64,000 nt of DNA from Halohasta litchfieldiae (GTDB lineage Archaea; Halobacteriota; Halobacteria; Halobacteriales; Haloferacaceae): the NCBI RefSeq assembly GCF_002788215.1, contig NZ_CP024845.1:1426001-1490000 (forward strand), in the 5' to 3' direction. Numbering within the stretch: position 1 is the first letter of the stretch; every line of letters starts with the position of its first letter. Below the pieces are notes generated by a model. It did no database searches, was not told the DNA's origin, and was given only the letters and a program-made list of their open reading frames with translations. Below, piece by piece: positions 2,694 through 17,038 of the stretch. A program made the translations under genes and the position numbers.

Positions 2694-3122
2694 ATGAATT
2701 CGCCTAATCCAAACACCCTGGACGTGATCGAAAACGAGTATCCCAACCGAAAAACAAAACTCGAACTTGCTGCGCCTGAATTTTCATGTCTATGTCCAAA
2801 AAAACCAAGCCAACCAGATTTCGCAACGATATTTATTGAATATGTCCCTGACGAACATATTATTGAATTAAAATCGCTAAAGCTCTACCTCACGTCATAT
2901 CGAGATGTCGAGATATACCACGAAGCTGCGACAAATCAGATATTAGATCACCTTACAGACTGTATATCTCCCCACTGGATGCGAATTACTGCACAATTCA
3001 ACACCCGAGGAGGGATCACCACAGATGTAGTTGTTGAATATGGCGATCTCGATAGAGATGAGATCCCCAGTAGTAGCGCCACTCGAAAAGAAAACCTCGG
3101 GAGAATCCCCTCTGAAAAATGA
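2694..3122 (+). CDS. queF: QueF-type NADPH-dependent preQ0 reductase
   Basis: This is a 142-residue unimodular QueF. The family reduces the nitrile of 7-cyano-7-deazaguanine (preQ0) to the aminomethyl base preQ1 using NADPH. Hallmarks visible are PEFSCLCP with the catalytic Cys34, PDFATI with Asp42, the NADPH-binding motif ELKSLKLYL at residues 58-66, and the His76-Glu77 pair in IYHE. The NADPH motif argues against the archaeal QueF-like amidinotransferases, which as I recall lack it. One oddity is that the Cys-Asp spacing is one residue longer than in the Bacillus enzyme as I remember it. The gene overlaps the DpdA-like gene by 4 bp and heads an eight-gene operon. No preQ0 synthesis genes (queC/D/E) are in the window. 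Preq0 presumably comes from the host archaeosine pathway. Confidence 0.9.
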   Translation: MNSPNPNTLDVIENEYPNRKTKLELAAPEFSCLCPKKPSQPDFATIFIEYVPDEHIIELKSLKLYLTSYRDVEIYHEAATNQILDHLTDCISPHWMRITAQFNTRGGITTDVVVEYGDLDRDEIPSSSATRKENLGRIPSEK

Positions 3123-4153
3123 CGCTTACATTCTTTGCTGGGATGAATATTTGTCCGAGCTCTATGCAGAAGCTCTTCGCCCGACTTCAGAATGAACATC
3201 ATACTCTGGCACCGTTAGAGAACGTTATCTTTACTCCGATTGCTCATGGTAACGGGACACATAGTGAAATCGAATCTCTGAGTAAAGAACTTGATCTCAA
3301 TGTTATGTTCGACTCTGGTGGATACGAGGTACAGGTCGGTAACAAGACGTTCGATGAACTTTATGAGTACCTTCTGAATTATTATGATGAAAACAGATGG
3401 GGGCAGCGGTATGTTCTCCCGGATAATGTACCGATGAGTGATGATGACGTTCAGACGGTACAACAGAAAGTTGATGAGACAGTTAGTGCGACTCGAATGT
3501 GTTTCCGCCGTTTACCTGAAAGTGTAAGAAGGGACTCATTGGCCGTCATTCAAGGTCACACACGCGAACAAATTTCTCGGTGTATTGATGAATACAAAGA
3601 ACTTGATGGATTGTCTAAAGTTGGATTTGGTAGCTTTGCAACCGGGGGTGTGAATGGCGGTGTTAATATGATCACATCAGAAGCATTTGAAAATCTCCGG
3701 TGGGCAACCGAACTTGCACATGAACATGGACTTTCAGTTCACGCATTTGGTGTCGGTGGTCCTACAAGTATTCCGTTGTTGTATGAGGCTGGCGTCGACA
3801 GCTTCGATACCACAAGTTGGATGCGAACAAGCGGATATGGAAATGTGTATTTCCCATTCAAAGGTCGGCTCAACGCATCTCACAGAAAGCACCGTAGCGG
3901 GAATATTTTGACGAGGCAAGAACTTCCTCATTTGAAGGCAGAGACCGATCATAGTTGTGCTTTCTGTGAAGATATGTCTCGCTTGAGTAACAGCCGGTGG
4001 GACAGAATTCTCCATAATCTCATCGTCACGCACGAAGTCGTTGAACGTATTGATGATATGAGTCAGCAGGAGGTCATAGACATGATGGATCAATCGTCCC
4101 GATACCGAAAACAGTTGGAAAGTATCACACCCCGAAAAGAGGTGAGTATCTAA
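3119..4153 (+). CDS. dpdA: DpdA/TGT-like 7-deazaguanine base-exchange enzyme
   Basis: This 344-residue protein belongs to the tRNA-guanine transglycosylase superfamily, which swaps guanine for a 7-deazaguanine base. It has FDSGGYEVQ (Asp65, counterpart of the TGT base-pocket motif) and GFGSFATGG near residue 170. HAFGVGGP and GVDSFDTTSW follow, with Asp230 as the likely nucleophile. A zinc site at the C-terminus has the form CAFC (280-283) plus His299 or His305. It lacks the PUA-type extra domains of archaeal tRNA TGT (ArcTGT) and is shorter, and it sits beside queF and ATPase genes rather than tRNA genes. DpdA, which acts on DNA, is therefore more likely than a tRNA enzyme. Start and stop couple it to neighbours (4-bp overlap before, 6-bp gap after). 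The DNA substrate is inferred. Confidence 0.82.
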   Translation: MTLTFFAGMNICPSSMQKLFARLQNEHHTLAPLENVIFTPIAHGNGTHSEIESLSKELDLNVMFDSGGYEVQVGNKTFDELYEYLLNYYDENRWGQRYVLPDNVPMSDDDVQTVQQKVDETVSATRMCFRRLPESVRRDSLAVIQGHTREQISRCIDEYKELDGLSKVGFGSFATGGVNGGVNMITSEAFENLRWATELAHEHGLSVHAFGVGGPTSIPLLYEAGVDSFDTTSWMRTSGYGNVYFPFKGRLNASHRKHRSGNILTRQELPHLKAETDHSCAFCEDMSRLSNSRWDRILHNLIVTHEVVERIDDMSQQEVIDMMDQSSRYRKQLESITPRKEVSI

Positions 4154-4159
4154 ACAACT

Positions 4160-5011
4160 ATGTCTTCAACAAAACTTCACATTGAAGGAGGGACCGGTCG
4201 GCCTGATGCAATCAAGTCATATCTTGATCTAATCGAACGACGAGAGTATAATTCTGCTAGTGCTGTTATGGAGGATGCGTATGTGGAATTCAACCTTACT
4301 CGTCCCAGCAAAACGGATAGGGAAGTAGATACAAAAGGAATGTTGACGACTCTGACAAACCTAGGGCTGGTTGAAGAAAATAACCGCCAACAGCTCACAG
4401 AATTGGGAGAAGAATTTATTGATGTGTTAATTTATAACGAGGATGCGTTCTTTGACTTATTCCACCTCTTATATTCAACAGCATATTATCGCAACCCAAG
4501 TAGTAACACGGGGATTTCATGGTCCTACTTCCAAATCTCGGATGCTTATCGCCGTAGGGCACCGACAAACTTCGCTGATGCACGACAGGAAGTGATAGAA
4601 GAGGTAATGAACAGAGCAGACCGGATGGAGTCACCAATATTTAATGACCCCGGTCCACTGAGCAAACGAAGTCTCAATAGTTATAAGAGATTCGTTGAGA
4701 AACTTGTTCCTCCTGTATTGAAAGACGGAACGTTTGATCTTCGTTCATTTGCTAAGAATGAACTAGTCATCGCCGCAGTTGATTCGTTGTATCGGAGTGA
4801 TATCCTCTTCAAAACCCTACGCTACGGAGATCGTCTGGAGTTATCAAATGAGTCCCGAGAATTCTTGAGCACAGTACTTCTAGTTTATGAGGATGATCTC
4901 CCTGAGTTATTGGAACACACTGCTTCAATGGATGGGAGATTGTCGATTGAATCTGACTACTCTATCAGAATACGGCTTACCGAGGAGGTGAATATCGATG
5001 ACCTCGCCTGA
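4160..5011 (+). CDS. winged-helix-like operon protein of unknown function
   Basis: This 283-residue protein is mostly alpha-helical. Around residues 60-90 the run MLTTLTNLGLVEENNRQQLTELG and what follows reads like the recognition helix and wing of a winged-helix fold, and the C-terminus is beta-rich. I recall DUF4007-type proteins with similar layout next to phosphorothioation genes but cannot assign this one. It starts 6 bp after the DpdA-like gene and overlaps the next gene by 14 bp. It could be a DNA-recognition or regulatory subunit of the system. Confidence 0.75.
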   Translation: MSSTKLHIEGGTGRPDAIKSYLDLIERREYNSASAVMEDAYVEFNLTRPSKTDREVDTKGMLTTLTNLGLVEENNRQQLTELGEEFIDVLIYNEDAFFDLFHLLYSTAYYRNPSSNTGISWSYFQISDAYRRRAPTNFADARQEVIEEVMNRADRMESPIFNDPGPLSKRSLNSYKRFVEKLVPPVLKDGTFDLRSFAKNELVIAAVDSLYRSDILFKTLRYGDRLELSNESREFLSTVLLVYEDDLPELLEHTASMDGRLSIESDYSIRIRLTEEVNIDDLA

Positions 5012-5513
5012 GTCAAATCTTCTTACACGCATGAACACGATAAAGCAGATCGATCTAAAGAAACATCTCACACCATCTCAGGAAGATGCACTCGAAGAAA
5101 TCAGGCAATACCGTAAAAACGGAGAACCGTTCATCAATCTTCATGGACCCAGAAACAGTGGGAAAACGTTCCTCTGTTGGGCTCTACGTGAGTATGGATG
5201 GAAGTACCAGCAGGCAGACTTCCAACGAGTAACTGAACCAGATGTGACTGCGGTAGTGTACGACCATGGGAAACCTGATCGTTCGACTACCCGTCAATTG
5301 CGCAATAATGTGGACCTGAGTGGACTCTCTAACGTGGTGTATGTAACAAAATCGCCTGCTAAAGAGATCTATCCAAGGGTTCACCTTTCAACTGACGAAC
5401 AACACTATCAAACAATAGCTGCCAGCTGGGATACATTGAGCATTGACACAGCAACCCTCCCAGCTGTCGATGCCACTGTCAACACTAATACTAACACCAA
5501 TCAAAACCAATGA
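4998..5513 (+). CDS. small P-loop ATPase of the deazaguanine/BREX-like operon
   Basis: This 171-residue protein has a Walker A motif, GPRNSGKT, with Lys56, after a short helical N-terminus. There is a possible Walker B at VTAVVYD. It is too short for a full AAA+ module and may act as a regulatory or adaptor NTPase for the large ATPase that follows. It ends in an Asn/Thr-rich tail (VNTNTNTNQNQ). The stop overlaps the next start as ATGA. The start at 4998 overlaps the previous gene by 14 bp; an internal ATG at 5031 is an alternative. Confidence 0.75.
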   Translation: MTSPESNLLTRMNTIKQIDLKKHLTPSQEDALEEIRQYRKNGEPFINLHGPRNSGKTFLCWALREYGWKYQQADFQRVTEPDVTAVVYDHGKPDRSTTRQLRNNVDLSGLSNVVYVTKSPAKEIYPRVHLSTDEQHYQTIAASWDTLSIDTATLPAVDATVNTNTNTNQNQ

Positions 5514-8500
5514 GCGAAACAGTAGCTTCATCAAACACTGACGAACTGCTTGACCTGATTAGAAAAGACGAGGGGATCATTTCCACTCACACAGCAAGTG
5601 ATCTTGAGGACTCTGCCGAATCCGTTGAAGAAAAATATCGGACGTATGCAGAGACACACATCTCACTTGGCGATACGAGTGGGTTCGAGCAAAGCGTATA
5701 TGATTCCCTCACGGAAAATGAAAGTTCTACGAAAGGCTACCTCTACGGGCCGTTTGGGTATGGAAAAACAAGCACGTCAGTGAGCATTTGGCACAAGCTA
5801 AATCAAAACGAGATCATTGCTGTTCCTCCGTTTACTGTTAGTTCATTCTCGGATATAATGCGGGCAACATATGGGTGGATGCATTATAAATTACGGACTG
5901 AGGCTCCACCTTATGTTGATAAGTTGGAAGATATTCGCAAGTCGTATCTAGAAAAAGAGATTCGTAGCTATGCTGAAGAAAAAAAGGACGCCCATGATGT
6001 CGGTGTCGATAAGCTGGTCACAATGTTCGAGGAGATGGAACGGACTGGTGAACTTGACCTCAGCATTAATGCGGATACGCTAATTGACTTCTTTGATGAA
6101 TGTACGAAATTAGCCACCGATGCAGGTTTCGAGGGACTTGTGGTTCTTGGAGATGAACTTCAACAGTACTTCAAGAGTGCAGATAACCGACAGGACGCAG
6201 AAGCAAACTTTCGTGACCTGATATGGGACATTCATTCTGGAGCTCAGATAGATAATAAATTCGGATTCTTTGTCTCAATGCCTGCTCAAACTAAGAGTAG
6301 TCTAGATACGCGAGCAGGGGACGTTCTCAACCGATTAGAGAGCGATAACTTGATGCTCAATTTAGAAAATGTCTACGGGCAAGATTTCCCCGCTGAGTTG
6401 TGGAACGAGTACGCTTCACGGTTTGCTTTTGAGGATCAACAGTATGATGTAATTACTAGTCATGCTCTCAATGCAATAGGCCAGATTTGTTCTCGACCAG
6501 AACTCAGCAATGGTCCGCGAACGGTTATCGATCTTTTCCGAATCGCACTTCAAAAATACCAAACTAGCCGTGATGCCTTCACCGCACTTGACCTTGCAGA
6601 GGCATTCTATAATGGTGAAGTACGTTTCCAGGGCAGTTCGACCATTATCCAATCCGCCATTGGCGATGCCCTCGATCACTCTTCAGTCGCAACTGATGAA
6701 CAAAAGACGTTTATTTTGCTCTGTGCAGTTTTCCCTGAACAAGGGATTCCTGAAGCTGCTGTTGAAGAGTATGGGCTTATTGATGCCCGGAGGCACCTTT
6801 CAAAAAAGCTGCATGGGGAAGTTATCAAAGTTATCGATGAAGGCTATACACTCATTGACGTTACACGCAGCGATGGGCCACAAGATGTTGTGCGAGAGTT
6901 GATTCGTGACTTCTGGAGCGAATATGATACGGATCATCCCAACGCAGAATACGCTCACAATGCACTAGCAAACCGCCTTGTTGGTGGTGAGATCTTCAAG
7001 CCCCAGCGCGGGAAACTTGAGGGTTGGGGTGTTGGTGATGGGCTCGACAAGGAGGCACCACAAGTCTATAGAAAGCATGGGATGATCGGCACGTTTGATC
7101 CAACCTATCCCAAGCGTAGCGCGACGGTCTCAGTTACCGATCCAGCTCATGAGGATAACGTCGTTGGTTCGGCTAATATCGGCCCCGGTGAAGCCGATAA
7201 TGACATCGCATTCAATTTCGTCCTCGGATGGGAGAAAGCTGATGAAACGGTTGATCCGCACATTCGGCGGGACTCTTCACGGGAATTCACGTTCATGCTG
7301 AATGGGCGCAAGACGTTTGAGGAACTACCAAATGGGATCGAATTCCTTCGGGATGCGATGGATCCAAAAGCAGTCAATCCGTTCCTGATGCTGGCTTTAG
7401 TCGACTACCTCGATACCACAGACAGAGATCTTGATCCGCAACAGCAACAACGTATCGAGTCGTTCCAAAATAGCCTCCTCAAGCAGGCTATTCAAACGCT
7501 ATTTGGAGAAGAATTAATTGGCAACGCTCCATTCAAAATTCGCCGTGCAGGAAAAATGGCAGTCAGTACTGTATTTAGAGAAGCAATGCAAGATCTCTAT
7601 CCCGATTACAGCACACTCATCACTAGTACACAGTACGAGTCAGTGATGGGTGATTATCTGGACTTCCTAGATTCCTTACAAACTGTATCACTCTGTCGTG
7701 GAATAGAGTCTCTTAAACAACCCAAAGATGAGGTAGCTCAACGGTTTGGTCTCAAGAATACGTCTCCCTTCGATGGACGCATTAAGAAACATTACTCTGA
7801 TCTTCTTACTGTCGAAAATTCGGATAAAGACGAATATGAGGTACGAACGACACTACACCCGTTCGAACAGTTCATTGTAGATGAGTTGGAGTCGGGAGAC
7901 CGGGAAGAATTCCCACTTGAAGAAATTCAGCAAACTGGATATAATAAGGGCTACAAAACGGAAGAACTGGACCTCATATTTGAATTCCTCTCTCGCCGGC
8001 GCATTGTTGGATTAGATGAAGATGACTCCTTGGTCCTGCTTGAAACCGACTATTCGATTGCACAAGTCGAGGAGATTCTTACTACTGGACGAGACCTACT
8101 AACGAAAATCAAAAAGTTAGATCAGGATGCGGTTCCTGACGGTGTAGAAACAGCGTTTAGTGAGGTTGAGAGTGTTCTTGAGGAGACCAATCCAGAAGAT
8201 GGAGAACGGCTAGAGACGCTGTATTATCACGCAAAAGAACAGGTGGAGGGGTTAGAACAACAGGGAGAAATACTCTACACACGTCATCACCAGGCATGTC
8301 AGGATCTTAAAAACCGGATTGAAAGAAAGTCACGTCAGATTGTACCAAACCATCTTGACAACACAATTGAAGGCGGAGTCCAGTTCGTTGGAGGAGTTAA
8401 CGACGCACGTTCGTCAATCCGTGGCGAGTATACTGATATTAATAATAAGTTAACTGAAACTGCCACTAACCTAGAGGGCACCCTCAAGACTCAAAATGGA

Positions 8501-9478
8501 ACTGGGATCGAAGGCGCAGTAGAACTATCCAAGAAGCAAAAAGAGGCGGAATCAGAGTTAGAATCGGTTGATGAGGAGATCGAGAAGCTTGAAGAAGATG
8601 CTGAGAAGCTCAAGGATTGGAAAGCGTTCACGGCTCAAGTTGCGGGAGTCAAAGAGGAAATTACGGACTACGCAAGAACATTTGATGAAGGTACTGTAGA
8701 AGAAGAGGATGAGATCAACCGGTTTATCTCACAAATATCAGAGCGGTTCGCTGAAGATCCAGTCGGTGCTCTTGATAACCTAGAAGGATTTAAAGAGAAT
8801 CTAGATCGAATCGAGAGCCAATATAAAAGCAAGCGAAAAGAACATCAGAAGGTCTTCGATGAGAAGCGCGAACGGCTGAAAGAGATTCTCCAAGAGGCAA
8901 CTGATGGCAAAGCACGTGGACTACGTTCAGCCAATTTCAGCATTCGAAACCCAGAGGAATCACGTCGAAACCTGCTAGAGGAGTTCAAAGACACATATAA
9001 AAAGAGCGTATTGGGACGAGCAGAAGAAAACATCGAGGATGCCCGTCGTGAAATTGAGTATGCTCGTGTCGTCGGAATAGAAAAGACAGTCGATGCTAAC
9101 CATAACGAGGTTGAAGAACGGATACTAACAGCAGAATCAACCCTTCAATCACTTCGATCGGAACTTGATCAATTCTCCTTTACAGATATTGGAGATGTAA
9201 CCAACCTTGGAACTGGGGGAGGGGATCTCGTTGAGACAACTGAAAAAATCAACGAAGATGCGAAGGAATTTAGATATGAACAGGAACCAGATGGGGAGAC
9301 TATCGAAGAGACGTTAAAACGAATTGAAGACCACCGCCGAGTGGATTTCAAAGACCTCCTGATGGAATATCACGATAATGGAGATACGATTGATCCAGAA
9401 GAGTTGTTGGATCGCATTCAGCGACTCTTTGTTCTCAACCAGATTGATATAGAAATCTCACAGCGGCGGGGGCGCTAA
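5510..9478 (+). CDS. BrxC/PglY-like large ATPase with coiled coils
   Basis: This 1322-residue protein has a Walker A motif GPFGYGKTST (Lys86) and a Walker B GLVVLGDELQQY (Asp215, Glu216) in an N-terminal P-loop domain. A long middle region contains several winged-helix-like stretches. The C-terminal half is very rich in Glu/Lys heptads between about residues 860 and 1290, a predicted coiled coil. Size and order match the BrxC/PglY ATPases of BREX systems, which form large DNA-associated complexes. No nuclease motif is apparent. It lies between a small P-loop protein and a PglZ-domain protein. Likely role: the central NTP-driven scaffold of a defence complex. Family membership is inferred from motifs and context. 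Confidence 0.8.
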   Translation: MSETVASSNTDELLDLIRKDEGIISTHTASDLEDSAESVEEKYRTYAETHISLGDTSGFEQSVYDSLTENESSTKGYLYGPFGYGKTSTSVSIWHKLNQNEIIAVPPFTVSSFSDIMRATYGWMHYKLRTEAPPYVDKLEDIRKSYLEKEIRSYAEEKKDAHDVGVDKLVTMFEEMERTGELDLSINADTLIDFFDECTKLATDAGFEGLVVLGDELQQYFKSADNRQDAEANFRDLIWDIHSGAQIDNKFGFFVSMPAQTKSSLDTRAGDVLNRLESDNLMLNLENVYGQDFPAELWNEYASRFAFEDQQYDVITSHALNAIGQICSRPELSNGPRTVIDLFRIALQKYQTSRDAFTALDLAEAFYNGEVRFQGSSTIIQSAIGDALDHSSVATDEQKTFILLCAVFPEQGIPEAAVEEYGLIDARRHLSKKLHGEVIKVIDEGYTLIDVTRSDGPQDVVRELIRDFWSEYDTDHPNAEYAHNALANRLVGGEIFKPQRGKLEGWGVGDGLDKEAPQVYRKHGMIGTFDPTYPKRSATVSVTDPAHEDNVVGSANIGPGEADNDIAFNFVLGWEKADETVDPHIRRDSSREFTFMLNGRKTFEELPNGIEFLRDAMDPKAVNPFLMLALVDYLDTTDRDLDPQQQQRIESFQNSLLKQAIQTLFGEELIGNAPFKIRRAGKMAVSTVFREAMQDLYPDYSTLITSTQYESVMGDYLDFLDSLQTVSLCRGIESLKQPKDEVAQRFGLKNTSPFDGRIKKHYSDLLTVENSDKDEYEVRTTLHPFEQFIVDELESGDREEFPLEEIQQTGYNKGYKTEELDLIFEFLSRRRIVGLDEDDSLVLLETDYSIAQVEEILTTGRDLLTKIKKLDQDAVPDGVETAFSEVESVLEETNPEDGERLETLYYHAKEQVEGLEQQGEILYTRHHQACQDLKNRIERKSRQIVPNHLDNTIEGGVQFVGGVNDARSSIRGEYTDINNKLTETATNLEGTLKTQNGTGIEGAVELSKKQKEAESELESVDEEIEKLEEDAEKLKDWKAFTAQVAGVKEEITDYARTFDEGTVEEEDEINRFISQISERFAEDPVGALDNLEGFKENLDRIESQYKSKRKEHQKVFDEKRERLKEILQEATDGKARGLRSANFSIRNPEESRRNLLEEFKDTYKKSVLGRAEENIEDARREIEYARVVGIEKTVDANHNEVEERILTAESTLQSLRSELDQFSFTDIGDVTNLGTGGGDLVETTEKINEDAKEFRYEQEPDGETIEETLKRIEDHRRVDFKDLLMEYHDNGDTIDPEELLDRIQRLFVLNQIDIEISQRRGR

Positions 9479-9488
9479 ATACGGACCG

Positions 9489-10604
9489 ATGGCATACTTT
9501 AATGAAATTAAGGAGCGTGCTCATCAACAGCCAGTCATAGTTCCTCTACCAAAACTAGCTCAATTCTATCTTGAGGACTTCAATATTTACTCCTCTATAG
9601 ATGACTTTCAAACGGACTTTTATCATCCAGATTTTCTTTTTGAAAATGATGTTATCATCGACGCGGACGAACACCATCCCGATTTTGACAGACTGTCATG
9701 CGATGAGGAGACAGTCGGCCCACGATTGAACACTGTCGTTGATTGGGCTTCAAATACTGATCATCAGCGGCTAAAAGAGGACTTGTTGGTTCAGTCTCAA
9801 ATTAAAGAGCATATTCTAGACGCTGTTTCTACGGAGGACCTAGTTATATTGATCATCGTTGATGGTCTCTCGTATGAATCTGTACGGGGGACAGCTATAG
9901 ACGCAAGACCGGTTTTCGTTGATGGTATTTCTACAACAGAACCGGGGTATCGGCGGGTAATATACGGCAAGGGCCAATACTCTCCCACTTCTGTATATGC
10001 TGACCTTCTTGATGCGAAGAGGTTCTATAATGATCTTTCCTATACATACTGGGAACGCGGTGATGAAGATCTTTCTACCGACCTTCATTCCTCTATGAGT
10101 AGCGTAACCCGGATCAGTAGTTTTAATGAGGTAGTTGATGCCCTCCGCGAAGAGTATCCACTAGAAGAGAAAACGTTCGTTCAAATCACACGTATGGGGC
10201 TTGATCAAGACTCTCATAACAGGAAAGAGGAACCGAATAAGTCAGCAGTTGTCCAGGACATACTCGACGACCTCGGGAAGATGCATGAAACTGCTGATAA
10301 ACTTTCAGACCGATTCCGGATCTTCCTCACGGCAGACCACGGAATTCTTTGGAGAGATCAGTTACCCTCTGAAGACTCAATTGTCTGTGAGGATTATCAT
10401 CCTCATGCGCGATTCGTAGAAGGGGGAATGAATATCAAGGAAGGCCGAACAATTTTCGAAACAGATGGGGTCAAGTCAATCGGTCTTGGCTATCCACATC
10501 TGACGAGGAAATTAGCAAATACGGAGTGGGGAGTACACGGAGGGTTCTCATACTATGAATCCATAGTTCCCCTTATTGAAGTCACCGAGGATAGTGCACT
10601 ATGA
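9489..10604 (+). CDS. pglZ-like: PglZ-domain protein (alkaline phosphatase superfamily)
   Basis: This 371-residue protein carries the PglZ signature of the alkaline-phosphatase fold. It has IIVDGLSY with the metal-ligand Asp125, LTADHG with Asp283 and His284, and VHGGFSYYESIVPL with His350, which is the typical closing motif of PglZ. PglZ proteins are the common core of BREX systems, and metal-dependent phosphatase or nuclease activity has been discussed for the family. This copy is short compared with BREX PglZ (often 600-900 residues), so it consists of little more than the catalytic domain. It begins 10 bp after the large ATPase gene and overlaps the HerA-like gene by 4 bp. Confidence 0.85.
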   Translation: MAYFNEIKERAHQQPVIVPLPKLAQFYLEDFNIYSSIDDFQTDFYHPDFLFENDVIIDADEHHPDFDRLSCDEETVGPRLNTVVDWASNTDHQRLKEDLLVQSQIKEHILDAVSTEDLVILIIVDGLSYESVRGTAIDARPVFVDGISTTEPGYRRVIYGKGQYSPTSVYADLLDAKRFYNDLSYTYWERGDEDLSTDLHSSMSSVTRISSFNEVVDALREEYPLEEKTFVQITRMGLDQDSHNRKEEPNKSAVVQDILDDLGKMHETADKLSDRFRIFLTADHGILWRDQLPSEDSIVCEDYHPHARFVEGGMNIKEGRTIFETDGVKSIGLGYPHLTRKLANTEWGVHGGFSYYESIVPLIEVTEDSAL

Positions 10605-11764
10605 AACTGTATATTGGACAAGAAATCGAAGAGGAAGACGATGTGTATATTGATGCATCAAGTGCCCGTTCAATACTCGCTTGCGGAAAGCGCGGAACGG
10701 GTAAAAGCTACACACTCGGGAATGTGGTGGAAGAGATACATACAGAAACAAATGATGTGGTACCGCTTGTCATCGACCCTATGGGAATCTATTGGACAAT
10801 GGCTGAAGAGAATGATGACCAACGCGACCTGCTTTGGGATTGGGGGGTTACTGAACAAGGATTCCCGGTAAACCTTCTCGTACCCGGCGATCCTGAAGAT
10901 CGATATGGTGACGATATTGTCCGTGAATTCCGGTCTCGCGGCATCGATCTAAATCCGCTCCTACTTAATCCATCAGACATGAGCCCTGATGGATGGTGCG
11001 ACTTATTCGATCTGAATATCAACAAACCGATGGGTATCACTCTATATCGTGCTATAAGAGAGCTCAACGAAGACGATACCCCGTTCTATCTTCCAGACAT
11101 CATTAATAAAGTCGAAATGGATGGATCCTCATCTGACCGTACAAAAGAGGCCCTGCTTAATCGGTTAGAAATGGCACGTGATTGGGATATTTTCGCAGGA
11201 GAGTATCAAGACGTGTGGACAACCTTTGATGAAAATCGGATTAACGTTCTTGATGTGAGTGTTCTTGATCCAGGGCAGTACGGGTTAAGAAATTTAGTGG
11301 TTGATGTCCTTGGAAAAGAACTCTTCAGACAACGGCAGGATGCTCGCCGTCGTGAAGAGATGGGACTAAGAGTCGAGATTCCGAAAGTTTGGCTCTTTAT
11401 TGATGAAGCTCATAATTTCGTTCCGAGTGGATCATCATCCTTAGCGAAGGATATGCTAATTCGGTGGGTGAAAGAAGGTCGTCAGCCTGGCCTCTCAATT
11501 GTCGTTGCAAGTCAACAACCCTCTGCAATCGATAGCGAGGTCCTCTCTCAGTGTGATATCACTCTCTGTCACAAGATTACCACAAAGGAAGATATTAGAT
11601 CACTAGATAAACTGAGTCAAGATTACATGGGGAGCAATCTGAAAACCTATGTCAGACAAATCGATAATGTGGGTGAAGCCGTCTTTGTTGACGATGATGA
11701 AGAGACCGTACAGATGGTAAAGATTCGACCTCGAAAAAGTCAGCATGGAGGCGGCGAAGCTTGA
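10601..11764 (+). CDS. HerA-like DNA translocase ATPase
   Basis: This 387-residue ATPase of the HerA/FtsK superfamily has Walker A CGKRGTGKSYT (Lys35), Walker B VWLFIDEAHNF (Asp268, Glu269), and a downstream IVVASQQPSAID sensor-like segment typical of HerA. HerA relatives form hexameric rings that pump double-stranded DNA, and they act in end resection, conjugation and several antiviral systems with partner nucleases or sirtuins. No such nuclease is encoded next to it, so it probably works with the PglZ and BrxC-like proteins. The start overlaps the PglZ stop (ATGA) and the stop overlaps the GNAT start. Confidence 0.87.
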   Translation: MKLYIGQEIEEEDDVYIDASSARSILACGKRGTGKSYTLGNVVEEIHTETNDVVPLVIDPMGIYWTMAEENDDQRDLLWDWGVTEQGFPVNLLVPGDPEDRYGDDIVREFRSRGIDLNPLLLNPSDMSPDGWCDLFDLNINKPMGITLYRAIRELNEDDTPFYLPDIINKVEMDGSSSDRTKEALLNRLEMARDWDIFAGEYQDVWTTFDENRINVLDVSVLDPGQYGLRNLVVDVLGKELFRQRQDARRREEMGLRVEIPKVWLFIDEAHNFVPSGSSSLAKDMLIRWVKEGRQPGLSIVVASQQPSAIDSEVLSQCDITLCHKITTKEDIRSLDKLSQDYMGSNLKTYVRQIDNVGEAVFVDDDEETVQMVKIRPRKSQHGGGEA

Positions 11765-12246
11765 AATCAAAGCTGGACAAGACTGTCCTTCCAATCCAAG
11801 CTGCATCATCAATCAATGAAGTAGAGGCCATCAATGATTTTTTTAATTCTTCCGAAATCAAGAACGATCTTCATTGGTTCACATATCGAGACACATTAAA
11901 ACGTGCTTTTGAGAGAGGAGATCGAGAACTCTATTATGTTGAGGAAACGTCCGGAACTCTTATTGGAGCGTTGATGGTGTGGTGTGAGTCTAGAATTCTA
12001 GACAAACATGAAGCACAGATTCGTCTTGTCGCAGTCTCCAGGGTTGGCCGTGGTGCAGGGATTGGACGCTATCTGTGTGAAGAGGCAGAAGAGTTTGCTC
12101 GAAGCCATGGAAAGGAACAGATGATTGCAGATGTAGTAAAAGGGTCATCTGCTGTAGAATTTTGGAAATCGATTGGTTACGAGGTGCAATCTGGTTGGGA
12201 AACAAAGAAAGGGACAGAAATGTTAACCGTCGAGAAATGGCTATGA
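11761..12246 (+). CDS. GNAT-family N-acyltransferase, last gene of the operon
   Basis: This 161-residue GNAT enzyme begins at a TTG that overlaps the stop of the HerA-like gene. The acetyl-CoA binding motif A is clear: IRLVAVSRVGRGAGIGRYLCEE fits the R/Q-x-x-G-x-G/A pattern. The segment SAVEFWKSIGYE is the usual motif B. GNATs transfer acyl groups to primary amines. Because preQ1 carries an aminomethyl group, the attractive reading is acylation of that amine on the free base or in DNA. Protein acetylation or an unrelated passenger role are equally open. It ends convergently with the small gene at 12241-12480. Confidence 0.85.
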   Translation: MKSKLDKTVLPIQAASSINEVEAINDFFNSSEIKNDLHWFTYRDTLKRAFERGDRELYYVEETSGTLIGALMVWCESRILDKHEAQIRLVAVSRVGRGAGIGRYLCEEAEEFARSHGKEQMIADVVKGSSAVEFWKSIGYEVQSGWETKKGTEMLTVEKWL

Positions 12247-13941: not shown

Positions 13942-14217
13942 ATGAGTCGAGTGGAATTTGGAGAGAGCATACAGAGAAATAAGATCCAATTAAGAACAAA
14001 GATGGCAAAATATAGCGTAACATCTGACACGGGACTACAAGTTGACGAACATGGTCCTACAAATGAGAAACCGGAATACACTCTTGATGAGGTGGCGGCC
14101 TTCTTTGCTGGTCGAACACTGATCTACCAAGAGAAAAAACAGCTTCGAACAGCCACGTCCATCTCATCAACTCGTACACGTGAAATACGTCGTATGTTAG
14201 TTCGAAACAATCTATGA
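13942..14217 (+). CDS. small hypothetical protein, first of a four-gene set
   Basis: This basic-to-neutral 91-residue protein contains LDEVAAFFAGRTLIYQEKK and a terminal helix TREIRRMLVRNNL, which may form a helix-turn-helix with the preceding serines (TSISSTRTREI). Its stop overlaps the start of the next gene by 4 bp. The most plausible role is a regulator or antitoxin for the following genes; the family is not recognised. Confidence 0.55.
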   Translation: MSRVEFGESIQRNKIQLRTKMAKYSVTSDTGLQVDEHGPTNEKPEYTLDEVAAFFAGRTLIYQEKKQLRTATSISSTRTREIRRMLVRNNL

Positions 14218-14873
14218 CCAGTGACAGTGATAAGGAATTACATCATCCAGCTGGACTCATTAGTGATAATGAGTCTGAGTGCTTGTTTGATGGAGAAACC
14301 TCACAAAAGGCCCGTGATGAGCTACGTGAGCAAATCAGTAATCGACTCGGACAAACACTCCGTGATTTCGCGGTAGTGTACCCGACACTCCGAGAATGCG
14401 ATATTGAATCTGTATTTGATCCAGACTCTCCCCGGAAAGTCACCGAAGTTCGAGCAGCCACACAGGATGCACTTGCGATGCTTGTCTATGGTATGTTGAC
14501 TAACGGTGATATGCTTGAGATGCGACTCCAGGATGCGATTCAGAACGCGGCAATAAGCTACGGTGAACAAATTGATGTGGAACTGAGCCTCCGTCGTGGG
14601 CCGCTTCCAACCATTGAGCAGTTGATTGTACAAGCTGATGAGGAAGGAATCTCTGAGGGAACACTCACCTTATTGGAGTACTTTTTGTATGAAACAGATG
14701 TAAGCCAAGAAAAATTGATTGAGGCTGCAGAATGTTTATCCATTGACTTCTCAGAAGAGGATATAGTAAGTGCTAATCAGATGGGTCCGTGTGTCCGAAA
14801 ACCACAGATGGCCTTTACTGACGTAACGATATCCGATGAAGAAATTGAAGACAGCACAGAAACTAATAAATAG
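14214..14873 (+). CDS. hypothetical helical protein, second of the four-gene set
   Basis: This 219-residue acidic, predominantly helical protein has no catalytic motif that I recognise. Visible features are a conserved-looking helix around DALAMLVYGMLTNGDMLEMRL and a very acidic tail (ISDEEIEDSTETNK). It overlaps the gene before it (ATGA) and is followed after 7 bp by the ADP-ribosyltransferase-like gene. It may be a partner or immunity protein for that enzyme. The position supports a functional link but the sequence does not prove one. Confidence 0.55.
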   Translation: MTSDSDKELHHPAGLISDNESECLFDGETSQKARDELREQISNRLGQTLRDFAVVYPTLRECDIESVFDPDSPRKVTEVRAATQDALAMLVYGMLTNGDMLEMRLQDAIQNAAISYGEQIDVELSLRRGPLPTIEQLIVQADEEGISEGTLTLLEYFLYETDVSQEKLIEAAECLSIDFSEEDIVSANQMGPCVRKPQMAFTDVTISDEEIEDSTETNK

Positions 14874-14880
14874 TAGCTAA

Positions 14881-15570
14881 ATGAAATTAAAAAATTCTGT
14901 AGGTCGAGATGAGTATATCTCTATAGATACTTCTACAATACTCTACCACGTCGCTTCTGCCACTAACTTACCCTCTATCCTTGAACAAGGAATTTTACCC
15001 GCAGATTCAACGCATCGAGACAATTTAGAAACAAAGTTGTCACATATTGCTGCAGATCATGGGATAGAATTTCCAGTTGTCAGACAAGATTGTGTGTTTT
15101 GTTACCCTTCAATAGACATTGCTCTCATGGGTATACACCCAGACACCGAGTGTGACAATAGCCTCATCTCACATAGCGGAATCGTTCTTGTTGATGCAGC
15201 AAGTACAGAAACCAATCTGTATATGGGTGAATTCCGGTATATTTCTGATGCAATAGATTTCCAATATATGGTGAGACCTGATGAGGCGATGATCTCCCAA
15301 TCTTTTGAAGATGCTTTGGCTCGCTACGCTAAATCATTCACTGAAATAGAAAATATCTCACAAATAGAAAATATCTCAGAGCAGTTCCACACCCCAGAAG
15401 TGGTTATTGAAGGAGGGGTCAAACCAAGTGCAATCACTGAATGTATTTTCTGGAAACAACTCCATACTCAAGGGCTCCCACAACCAGTACGAGCAGGTGG
15501 TATTGAGGAAAAAGGTCTCAGTCGACGATCACGTATTGAGGAAAAATATAGAAATGGGAATTGTAGATAG
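14881..15570 (+). CDS. DarT-like / ART-fold protein (putative ADP-ribosyltransferase)
   Basis: This 229-residue protein opens with ILYHVASATNLPSILEQGI (residues 20-38), the first strand and helix seen in DarT/DUF4433 and related ADP-ribosyltransferase folds (the family pattern is an LYH motif followed by NL.SIL..GI). It ends with PEVVIEGGVKPSAITECIF, similar to the DarT closing strand. DarT enzymes ADP-ribosylate DNA thymidine and act in toxin-antitoxin and phage defence. The antitoxin DarG macrodomain is absent here. An 18-bp tandem duplication encodes ENISQIENIS. The stop is adjacent to the GNAT start. RNA-phosphotransferase-like ART folds are an alternative. Confidence 0.55.
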   Translation: MKLKNSVGRDEYISIDTSTILYHVASATNLPSILEQGILPADSTHRDNLETKLSHIAADHGIEFPVVRQDCVFCYPSIDIALMGIHPDTECDNSLISHSGIVLVDAASTETNLYMGEFRYISDAIDFQYMVRPDEAMISQSFEDALARYAKSFTEIENISQIENISEQFHTPEVVIEGGVKPSAITECIFWKQLHTQGLPQPVRAGGIEEKGLSRRSRIEEKYRNGNCR

Positions 15571-16233
15571 ATGACTAGACCTGACCCGAATAGCACTCAA
15601 GATCAGTTGCGTGTTCGGCCTGCTGAGAGTGAGGAAGACGTCTACTTTCTAGCTCAACAAGAGCATCATTACTTTGGACCTGCCAATGATTGGCCGGAAG
15701 AAATTCCACGCAATTACTTGCCAATTGTAGGGGGGAATATACCCGATAGCTCAGAAAATAAAACCCCACTAGATGCTTATGGTGTGATTGCTGAGCACTC
15801 ACCCTCGAAAACCGACCAGACTGTTAGAATCGGAGGAGGTGTCGTATTACTCTATGATCGAAATGATGCTGCTGATACTTTACCCCCAGTCGGTGGTTTT
15901 CCTCATGCAATAGTCTGTGATGTGAATGCCTATCTATTATTCACTGTCGTTGACCCAGCATGGCAAGGACAAGGAATTGGTCGGAGAATCTTACAGGATC
16001 GGCTTCATTGGATCGACTCAACAAACGCAGAAATGGTCTTTACCTGTGGATGGGAGCGCGACTCTAATGGAAGCAGTCGACCGCTTCTTAGCGATGCTGG
16101 ATTCACCGAAAAACGGACAATCGAAGGTTTCTATTCCGATCATAGCCGACGCTCATGTCCAGATTGCGGTGCTTGGCCAACCAACGATAAAATGTGTCAA
16201 TGTCGTACAACAGTATGGATGAAATATCTATAA
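15571..16233 (+). CDS. GNAT acetyltransferase with C-terminal zinc ribbon
   Basis: This 220-residue GNAT enzyme has motif A at LFTVVDPAWQGQGIGRRIL (acetyl-CoA binding loop GQGIGR). It has an unusual C-terminal zinc-binding tail CPDCGAWPTNDKMCQC, which gives four cysteines. GNAT toxins acetylate aminoacyl-tRNAs, and other members modify proteins or small molecules. The gene abuts the ART-like gene with no gap and closes the four-gene set, so its substrate may be linked to that enzyme. GNAT assignment is firm; the role is unknown. Confidence 0.75.
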   Translation: MTRPDPNSTQDQLRVRPAESEEDVYFLAQQEHHYFGPANDWPEEIPRNYLPIVGGNIPDSSENKTPLDAYGVIAEHSPSKTDQTVRIGGGVVLLYDRNDAADTLPPVGGFPHAIVCDVNAYLLFTVVDPAWQGQGIGRRILQDRLHWIDSTNAEMVFTCGWERDSNGSSRPLLSDAGFTEKRTIEGFYSDHSRRSCPDCGAWPTNDKMCQCRTTVWMKYL

Positions 16234-16474
16234 TCAAGAGCCACAGATTTGTTTACTATATCCACTTAGCCGGGTTATGTCTTTACTCGATTAGATCCCT
16301 CAGAGAATGGCGTCTATAACGACTATATCGAGTCGAAGTGAGTGATTTCTAATCGCCTTCGCTCAAATATCCGCTTACGATTATTCATACAGTCGACCTT
16401 TTTGCCCATATATTGATCACTGGTGGATCGTTGATGAATTAATTGTTTATAGTCAGGGGGATGATCTCTTGATA
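16234..16474. other. intergenic region upstream of the TBP gene
   Basis: These 241 bp lie between the GNAT gene and the TBP gene and contain no supported gene. AT-rich blocks near 16430-16450 (GAATTAATTGTTTATAG) could hold the TBP promoter. Nothing else stands out. Confidence 0.35.
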
Positions 16475-17038
16475 ATGAGTGCAGCCGTAGATACAATCGA
16501 AATTCAAAATGTAGTTGCATCGACTGGCATCGATCATGAACTGGATCTTGAAACCCTCGATGAAGACCTGGTAGGCGCGGACTTCAACCCAGACAACTTT
16601 CCAGGACTCGTGTACAGAACACAGGACCCCAAGGCAGCGGCACTCATTTTCCGGTCTGGAAAAGTCGTCTGCACCGGCGCATCAAGTGTTGATGATGTCC
16701 ATGAGGCGATCAATATCGTGTTCGGAAAACTCCGGGATCTTGGAATACCAATCGATGATTCTCCAGAGATTACTGTCCAGAATATCGTCTCAAGTGCTGA
16801 CCTTGGTGAAGCTATGAATCTCAATGCTATTGCAATCGGTCTTGGGCTTGAGGACGTTGAGTATGAACCCGAACAGTTCCCGGGACTGGTCTACCGGATG
16901 GATAATCCGGAAGTGGTAGTTTTGCTCTTCGGCAGTGGGAAAATCGTGATCACAGGCGGGCAACAACCAGAGGATGCCAGTGTTGCAGTGGAGAATATGA
17001 TTGAGGAACTTGAGGGTCTGGGGCTATTTAGTAGCTGA
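16475..17038 (+). CDS. tbp: TATA-box binding protein
   Basis: This 187-residue TBP binds TATA elements and nucleates archaeal transcription with TFB. The two-fold pseudosymmetric repeat is plain: NFPGLVYRTQDPKAAALIF then SGKVVCTGA in the first half, and QFPGLVYRMDNPEVVVLLF then SGKIVITGG in the second. ATG 16475 is chosen because the alternative upstream start is a TTG two codons earlier. It is acidic, as in halophiles. Haloarchaea commonly carry several TBPs, including plasmid copies thought to give alternative promoter choice. It sits alone, upstream of a convergent Lrp regulator. Confidence 0.97.
   Translation: MSAAVDTIEIQNVVASTGIDHELDLETLDEDLVGADFNPDNFPGLVYRTQDPKAAALIFRSGKVVCTGASSVDDVHEAINIVFGKLRDLGIPIDDSPEITVQNIVSSADLGEAMNLNAIAIGLGLEDVEYEPEQFPGLVYRMDNPEVVVLLFGSGKIVITGGQQPEDASVAVENMIEELEGLGLFSS

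Follow-up and report, generated by a model that had tools for sequence, protein, structure and literature searches.

In this work, we analysed a 64,000-nucleotide stretch of the Halohasta litchfieldiae genome (contig NZ_CP024845.1, positions 1,426,001 to 1,490,000), hereafter called the window, which carries an operon of eight genes at window positions 2694-12246. All eight open reading frames lie on the forward strand, in the order QueF, single-domain tRNA-guanine transglycosylase (TGT), DUF4007/SspB-fold protein (p3), small P-loop NTPase (p4), BrxC/SspC-like ATPase (p5), PglZ (p6), HerA (p7), and GNAT (p8) (Table 1). Neighbouring genes overlap by 4-14 bp or stand 6-10 bp apart, the successive junctions being an overlap of 4, a gap of 6, overlaps of 14 and 4, a gap of 10, and two overlaps of 4 bp, which agrees exactly with a previous sequence-only reading of this DNA as eight same-direction genes overlapping or within 10 bp of one another. 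That reading also listed QueF, the TGT, and five genes of bacteriophage exclusion (BREX) or HerA type, but it left the eighth gene, the GNAT, unnamed, although it is a core partner. The same gene set is kept in seven further haloarchaeal loci, and thus the operon is not a chance arrangement. What is new here is the QueF component; the system class was already known.

Table 1 Genes of the operon and one neighbouring gene in the window
Position	Strand	Length (aa)	Assignment	Supporting match
2694-3122	+	142	QueF-II, predicted NADPH-dependent preQ0 nitrile reductase yielding preQ1	TIGR03139, 144.2 bits
3119-4153	+	344	TGT-fold base-exchange enzyme, single-domain, predicted to insert preQ1 into DNA	PF01702, 45.7 bits
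4160-5011	+	283	p3, DUF4007/SspB-fold predicted DNA-binding protein	AlphaFold2 fold match to SspB 6juf
4998-5513	+	171	p4, small P-loop NTPase in BrxB/STAND position	Walker A GPRNSGKT conserved
5510-9478	+	1322	p5, BrxC/SspC-like AAA+ ATPase	PF10923 BrxC_BrxD, 20.2 bits (cut-off 22.2)
9489-10604	+	371	p6, PglZ, alkaline-phosphatase-superfamily predicted effector	PF08665, 19.2 bits (cut-off 25); PADLOC PglZ 8e-5
10601-11764	+	387	p7, HerA/FtsK-type predicted DNA translocase	DUF87, 41.3 bits; PADLOC mad8 3e-24, HerA 1e-22
11761-12246	+	161	p8, GNAT acyltransferase, predicted to acylate the preQ1 aminomethyl group	PF00583, 42.6 bits
2100-2453	-	117	Small conserved protein, possible accessory	Homologues beside QueF/operon in 5/8 haloarchaeal loci, window included

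Protein families of the operon and related systems

The first protein scores above the TIGR03139 cut-off of 86.9 bits and has both the catalytic Cys/Asp pair and the NADPH motif of QueF: C34, D42, E77, and RGG are invariant, and K60 and K63 are present in ELKSLK, residue roles being taken from Bacillus subtilis QueF and the NADPH motif being defined as E(S/L)K(S/A)xK. The QueF-like archaeosine synthase (QueF-L) was rejected as an identity for this protein, as PDB profiles gave 118 bits for QueF vs 40 for QueF-L. The second protein, above the PF01702 cut-off of 26.3 bits, is modelled by AlphaFold2 (mean predicted local distance difference test score, pLDDT, 92.9) as a complete TGT catalytic domain with fold Z scores of 25-28. 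Its D65, D102, and D230, which correspond to catalytic or recognition residues of TGTs, and its HCCH zinc ligands are invariant among 28 relatives.

The sequence of p3 matched nothing in Pfam (DUF4007 included) or in the PDB, but its model, built with 26 relatives (pLDDT 88.3), has SspB 6juf as top fold (Z 15.9, 251 residues, Foldseek E 4e-4). The predicted SspB fold spans the whole length of the protein, and we therefore assigned p3 to DUF4007, which equals SspB (PMC12839542). Only marginal P-loop matches to hidden Markov models (HMMs) were obtained for p4, which co-travels with PglZ and HerA as a block. In p5, the Walker A and B residues are invariant across 9 relatives, and size and position fit a BrxC-type ATPase; its PDB matches were chance coiled-coil matches, mostly to apolipoproteins, and PF19557 (DUF6079) had no match in the genome of the window. 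PglZ keeps the motifs VDG, T150, DHG, and HGG and is free of the large extensions of BREX PglZ, while HerA reaches a mean column identity of 81% over 8 loci.

This architecture is that of BREX-Related Capture (BRC), described by Rakesh and Krishnan in January 2026 (NAR; PMC12839542). The authors found PglZ, DUF6079/BrxC, a STAND NTPase, DUF4007, and HerA in 45 taxa, with GNAT and TGT in a subset; the ATPase is a DUF6079/BrxC-type ORC/Cdc6 protein and the NTPase an active STAND homologue of BrxB, and an inactive Swi2/Snf2 N-terminal part is named in connection with PglZ (PMC12839542). The window operon likewise combines a HerA/FtsK translocase, a short PglZ, a DUF4007 (SspB-type) protein, a putative BrxC-type ATPase, a putative NTPase, a GNAT, and a TGT. 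Its assignment to BRC is thus well supported by architecture, with two of the seven components lacking clear HMM support. The claim that the whole system was undescribed has consequently been overtaken by that publication, whereas the conserved module of QueF, TGT, BrxC, PglZ, and HerA does exist, as the further haloarchaeal loci show. QueF occurs nowhere in the main text of the BRC paper, which suggests dPreQ0, the deoxynucleoside of preQ0 (7-cyano-7-deazaguanine), as perhaps the sole base and leaves the GNAT substrate open (PMC12839542). Our literature search found no paper joining QueF with BREX, the sole text match being unrelated. A further difference is that HerA is present in all published loci, whereas we also found a GNAT-TGT-DUF4007-BrxC core with no NTPase, PglZ, or HerA in reach.

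Other systems share parts of this operon. In Ssp (SspABCD-E) and BREX type 4, SspB/DUF4007 and SspC/BrxC act with a PAPS reductase, and the window operon similarly places an SspB/DUF4007-fold protein and an SspC/BrxC-like ATPase beside a predicted DNA-modifying enzyme, with PglZ shared with BREX type 4. However, the TGT replaces the PAPS reductase, HerA, QueF, and GNAT are added, and BrxL is missing; neither the BrxX methyltransferase nor the BREX-4 PAPS reductase is among the eight proteins. Dpd systems also have a TGT-fold enzyme presumed to place 7-deazaguanine in DNA, but the TGT here is small and distinct, DpdB and DpdC are absent, and QueF is present. Membership of Dpd was ruled out by a score of 21.7 bits vs the cut-off of 200 for the DpdA equivalog NF041059; the label DpdA-like in the sequence-only reading is too specific. 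Haloarchaea themselves often encode large Dpd-type DpdA proteins (35/293 genomes), in most cases as open frames of 720-1060 aa. As for viruses, halovirus HVTV-1 and phage Dp-1 have a QueF-type enzyme, and dPreQ1, the deoxynucleoside of preQ1 (7-aminomethyl-7-deazaguanine), was measured in their DNA, replacing about 30% of G in HVTV-1 (PMC6884629). Theirs is viral self-protection, HVTV-1 has no DpdA, and no PglZ/HerA/GNAT module is reported there. The haloarchaeal PbeABCD module, which had been suggested as a homologue, is likewise made up of several genes and linked to a DNA modification (Dnd), but it consists of an HKD nuclease-helicase, a small protein, a CxC ABC-ATPase, and a DndE cognate, none corresponding to PglZ, HerA, or the TGT. 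HMM scans found no HKD nuclease-helicase or CxC ABC-ATPase domain among the operon proteins, and homology to Pbe is ruled out by the definitions of its proteins; Ssp and BREX type 4 are closer. The related idea that a 7-deazaguanine mark takes the place of the phosphorothioate mark is still the best reading of the conserved module.

QueF and the predicted demand for preQ1

QueF lies within the locus in all eight haloarchaeal copies, counting the window and the seven further complete copies. In five of them, its end runs 4 bp into the TGT gene; it lies 55 bp upstream in L016, follows the GNAT in L009 (a Haloplanus plasmid), and is convergent after the GNAT in L015, while L014 has a second, divergent copy, so that two QueF forms stand within 1.6 kb beside the operon (13993-15536). 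There are two main forms, with about 31-42% mutual identity. Although the window and L011 are closely related (TGT identity 94%), so varied a layout does not reflect plain descent from a single arrangement. Among 293 haloarchaeal genomes, QueF was found in nine, comprising 7/7 with the operon TGT and 2/286 without it (Fisher p ~1e-12, computed without phylogenetic correction). Of the latter two, G006 lacks the NADPH-motif lysines, and the QueF of G289 is related to the second form. As a control, none of the 35 genomes with Dpd-type DpdA, whose systems use preQ0, has QueF, and archaea do not make preQ1 for archaeosine (PMC6884629). Taken together, the co-occurrence and the control strongly argue for a TGT that would need preQ1, which is the natural reading, and by gene content QueF is part of the BRC system in haloarchaea. 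The Haloplanus plasmid also carries queC, queE, and queD beside the operon (L009:8893-10914), predicting a self-contained preQ1 supply.

Sampling of the phylum yielded one further archaeal copy in a genome with 36% GC (G618), putatively that of a Methanosarcina-like methanogen, whose locus L106 holds a full GNAT-TGT-DUF4007-NTPase-BrxC-PglZ-HerA operon. QueF is absent from all 112 genomes of its family, G618 included. At L106:17931-19627, HerA is followed by a 2-hydroxyacyl-CoA dehydratase D-type protein (HGD-D; 38-bp overlap) and then by a BcrA/BadF-type ATP-dependent activator (4-bp overlap), and within the family a close HGD-D match and the operon TGT both occur only in G618. Such pairs, double-cubane-type reductases, perform difficult reductions. 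This one instance suggests that HGD-D and its activator are a non-homologous replacement of QueF, that is, a predicted preQ0 reductase; a literature search for a double-cubane or nitrile-reduction precedent returned nothing useful.

A TGT profile scan of 84,980 genomes gave 27 bacterial loci and two haloarchaeal ones; in the haloarchaeal TGT scan, the match in G149 is a TgtA-type paralogue. Phage records contain no relative of the operon TGT, and IMG/VR holds one GNAT-TGT pair without the remaining genes plus one weak match. None of the 27 bacterial loci contains QueF, which would fit hosts that have preQ1 in their ordinary metabolism: in most cyanobacterial carriers a QueF gene stands outside the locus, and in many Chloroflexi carriers neither QueC nor QueF was detected but a tRNA Tgt is present, which suggests salvage. 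Of these 27 loci, 23 encode a GNAT, either as a separate gene or, in ten cases, as a fusion with the TGT; three of the others are short contigs, and the fourth is a distant relative. Sigma-70-type proteins adjoin bacterial GNAT-TGT loci at L037:8148-9947 and L036:18699-20048, the latter also matching PADLOC MzaA.

These distributions bear on the published view of BRC, in which TGT-made dPreQ0 would itself be the mark, QueF would be incidental or serve another role, and the GNAT would act on proteins or another substrate. This view has behind it the proposal of dPreQ0 as sole base (PMC12839542) and the bacterial carriers with QueC but no detected QueF. We nevertheless consider it unlikely for the operon, as it leaves unexplained the contrast of QueF between genomes with and without the operon TGT, its absence from the users of preQ0, the varied placements and forms of QueF, and the GNAT-TGT fusions.

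Substrate of the TGT and role of the GNAT

In a tree of three groups, the operon TGT, the tRNA TGTs, and DpdA each form their own clade with 100% bootstrap. The operon TGT is thus not placed firmly within the tRNA TGT clade, an outcome that had been named as one that would speak against a DNA-modifying role, although the tree is unrootable and its long branches meet, so that nearness to DpdA or to tRNA TGT cannot be read from it alone. HMM scores are mixed: the window TGT scores higher against TGT than against DpdA models (12-22 bits), whereas L036 and L038 score higher against DpdA. We therefore take DNA as the predicted substrate from the partner proteins and not from the sequence of the TGT itself. 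Alternatively, the TGT/QueF pair could modify tRNA, for example by a queuosine-like change upon infection, to which the other genes respond. Fold and Pfam scores do lie closest to tRNA TGTs, but this explanation seems quite improbable to us in view of the separate clade, the canonical arcTGT candidate of about 500 aa that the same genome retains for tRNA, the constant SspB- and BrxC/SspC-like partners, and a top PDB profile match, albeit weak (E 0.003), to the DpdA/DNA-guanine transglycosylase 7ui4.

We propose, as a rather probable model drawn from comparative genomics, a haloarchaeal BRC system with a self-mark built on preQ1. Host QueC, QueD, and QueE would make preQ0 for tRNA archaeosine; as preQ1 is not otherwise produced in these archaea, the operon would bring its own QueF to reduce preQ0 to preQ1. 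The TGT would then put preQ1 into DNA in exchange for guanine, while the DUF4007/SspB-fold protein and the BrxC/SspC-like ATPase would select the sites as a scanning pair of the Ssp/BREX-4 type, with the TGT in the place of the PAPS reductase. The GNAT would next acylate the inserted base, and finally the block of NTPase, PglZ, and HerA would capture and translocate unmarked DNA and cut or block it. Gene content, domain identities, and co-occurrence patterns are observed here, whereas the DNA substrate, the identity of the base, its acylation, and the anti-viral function, the last inferred from the family, are predicted from them.

This model has the GNAT act on the base itself. GNATs usually acylate primary amines, and preQ1 offers one at the position of the nitrile in preQ0; our reasoned hypothesis is that the GNAT would acylate this exposed amine to give N-acyl-dPreQ1 or an equivalent, although a literature search for a GNAT acting on an aminomethyl-base gave nothing useful. 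Alternatively, unacylated dPreQ1 could be the mark and the GNAT could have a regulatory part in the complex, with PglZ, the ATPase, or the TGT as conceivable acetylation targets. GNATs often acetylate proteins, and no acyl group is reported on the dPreQ1 of HVTV-1 and phage Dp-1 (PMC6884629); however, the GNAT is repeatedly fused to the TGT and is kept even in loci that lack PglZ and HerA, which connects it with formation of the base, and we regard this alternative as doubtful. Tentatively, but as a real possibility, we extend the preQ1 model to a cellular immunity that marks self DNA with N-acyl-7-aminomethyl-7-deazaguanine, its nitrile reduction being supplied in two non-homologous ways, by QueF in haloarchaea and by the HGD-D/BcrA-type reductase in G618.

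Several observations weigh against the preQ1 model. Chief among them, G298, G302, and G311, all metagenome-assembled genomes, have QueC but no detected QueF and may use preQ0. Profile-profile comparison places the operon TGT slightly nearer to tRNA TGT (E 1.6e-12) than to DpdA (E 6e-9), which is equivocal, and the TGT fold does not separate a DNA from a tRNA substrate. Nor does the sequence of a GNAT reveal its substrate. In addition, the PglZ of L015 (15414-16523) has lost metal ligands (DHG to GHG, VHGG to VSGG), and this effector may be dead or altered.

Modules, genomic setting, and implications

The core common to 36 loci is GNAT-TGT-DUF4007-BrxC, while NTPase, PglZ, and HerA come as a set, complete in 15 loci and missing altogether in 21, some of them truncated. 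The four core proteins look like a writer and scanner, and the remainder like exchangeable effectors. In three cyanobacterial loci (L044:16121-19382, L048:15915-19351, L055:15942-19225), a GNAT-TGT fusion occurs and the core is followed, in place of NTPase, PglZ, and HerA, by a 285-aa protein, an AAA ATPase, and a retron-III-A-type PRTase-CE, a variant apparently outside the published BRC definition. In Chloroflexi L030, L033, L034, and L046, two tandem DUF4007-BrxC pairs stand behind GNAT-TGT, with PglZ and HerA not in reach.

The host genome is 3.33 Mb in a single contig, and its same-order relatives are haloarchaea. GC content is 0.41-0.47 across 2-18 kb of the window and mostly 0.47-0.58 beyond, which fits the expectation for an acquired island. 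The small protein before the operon has no Pfam match. Downstream, an AT-rich cluster at 13942-17038, absent from the other BRC-type loci compared, encodes unassigned proteins, a second GNAT-like protein (15571-16233), and a TATA-binding protein (16469-17038).

For BRC, the questions of which base is written and what the GNAT does receive a specific prediction that is testable by mass spectrometry in culturable haloarchaea, Halogeometricum limi and Halorientalis regularis being culturable carriers. To our knowledge, an acylated base of the preQ1 type, if present in cellular genomes, would be unreported in DNA. The pattern of hosts that need QueF also offers an independent route to inferring a modification pathway by genome comparison. 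If the model is true, one SspB/BrxC scanning chassis would accept 7-deazaguanine marks as well as methylation and phosphorothioation, each as an interchangeable plug-in.

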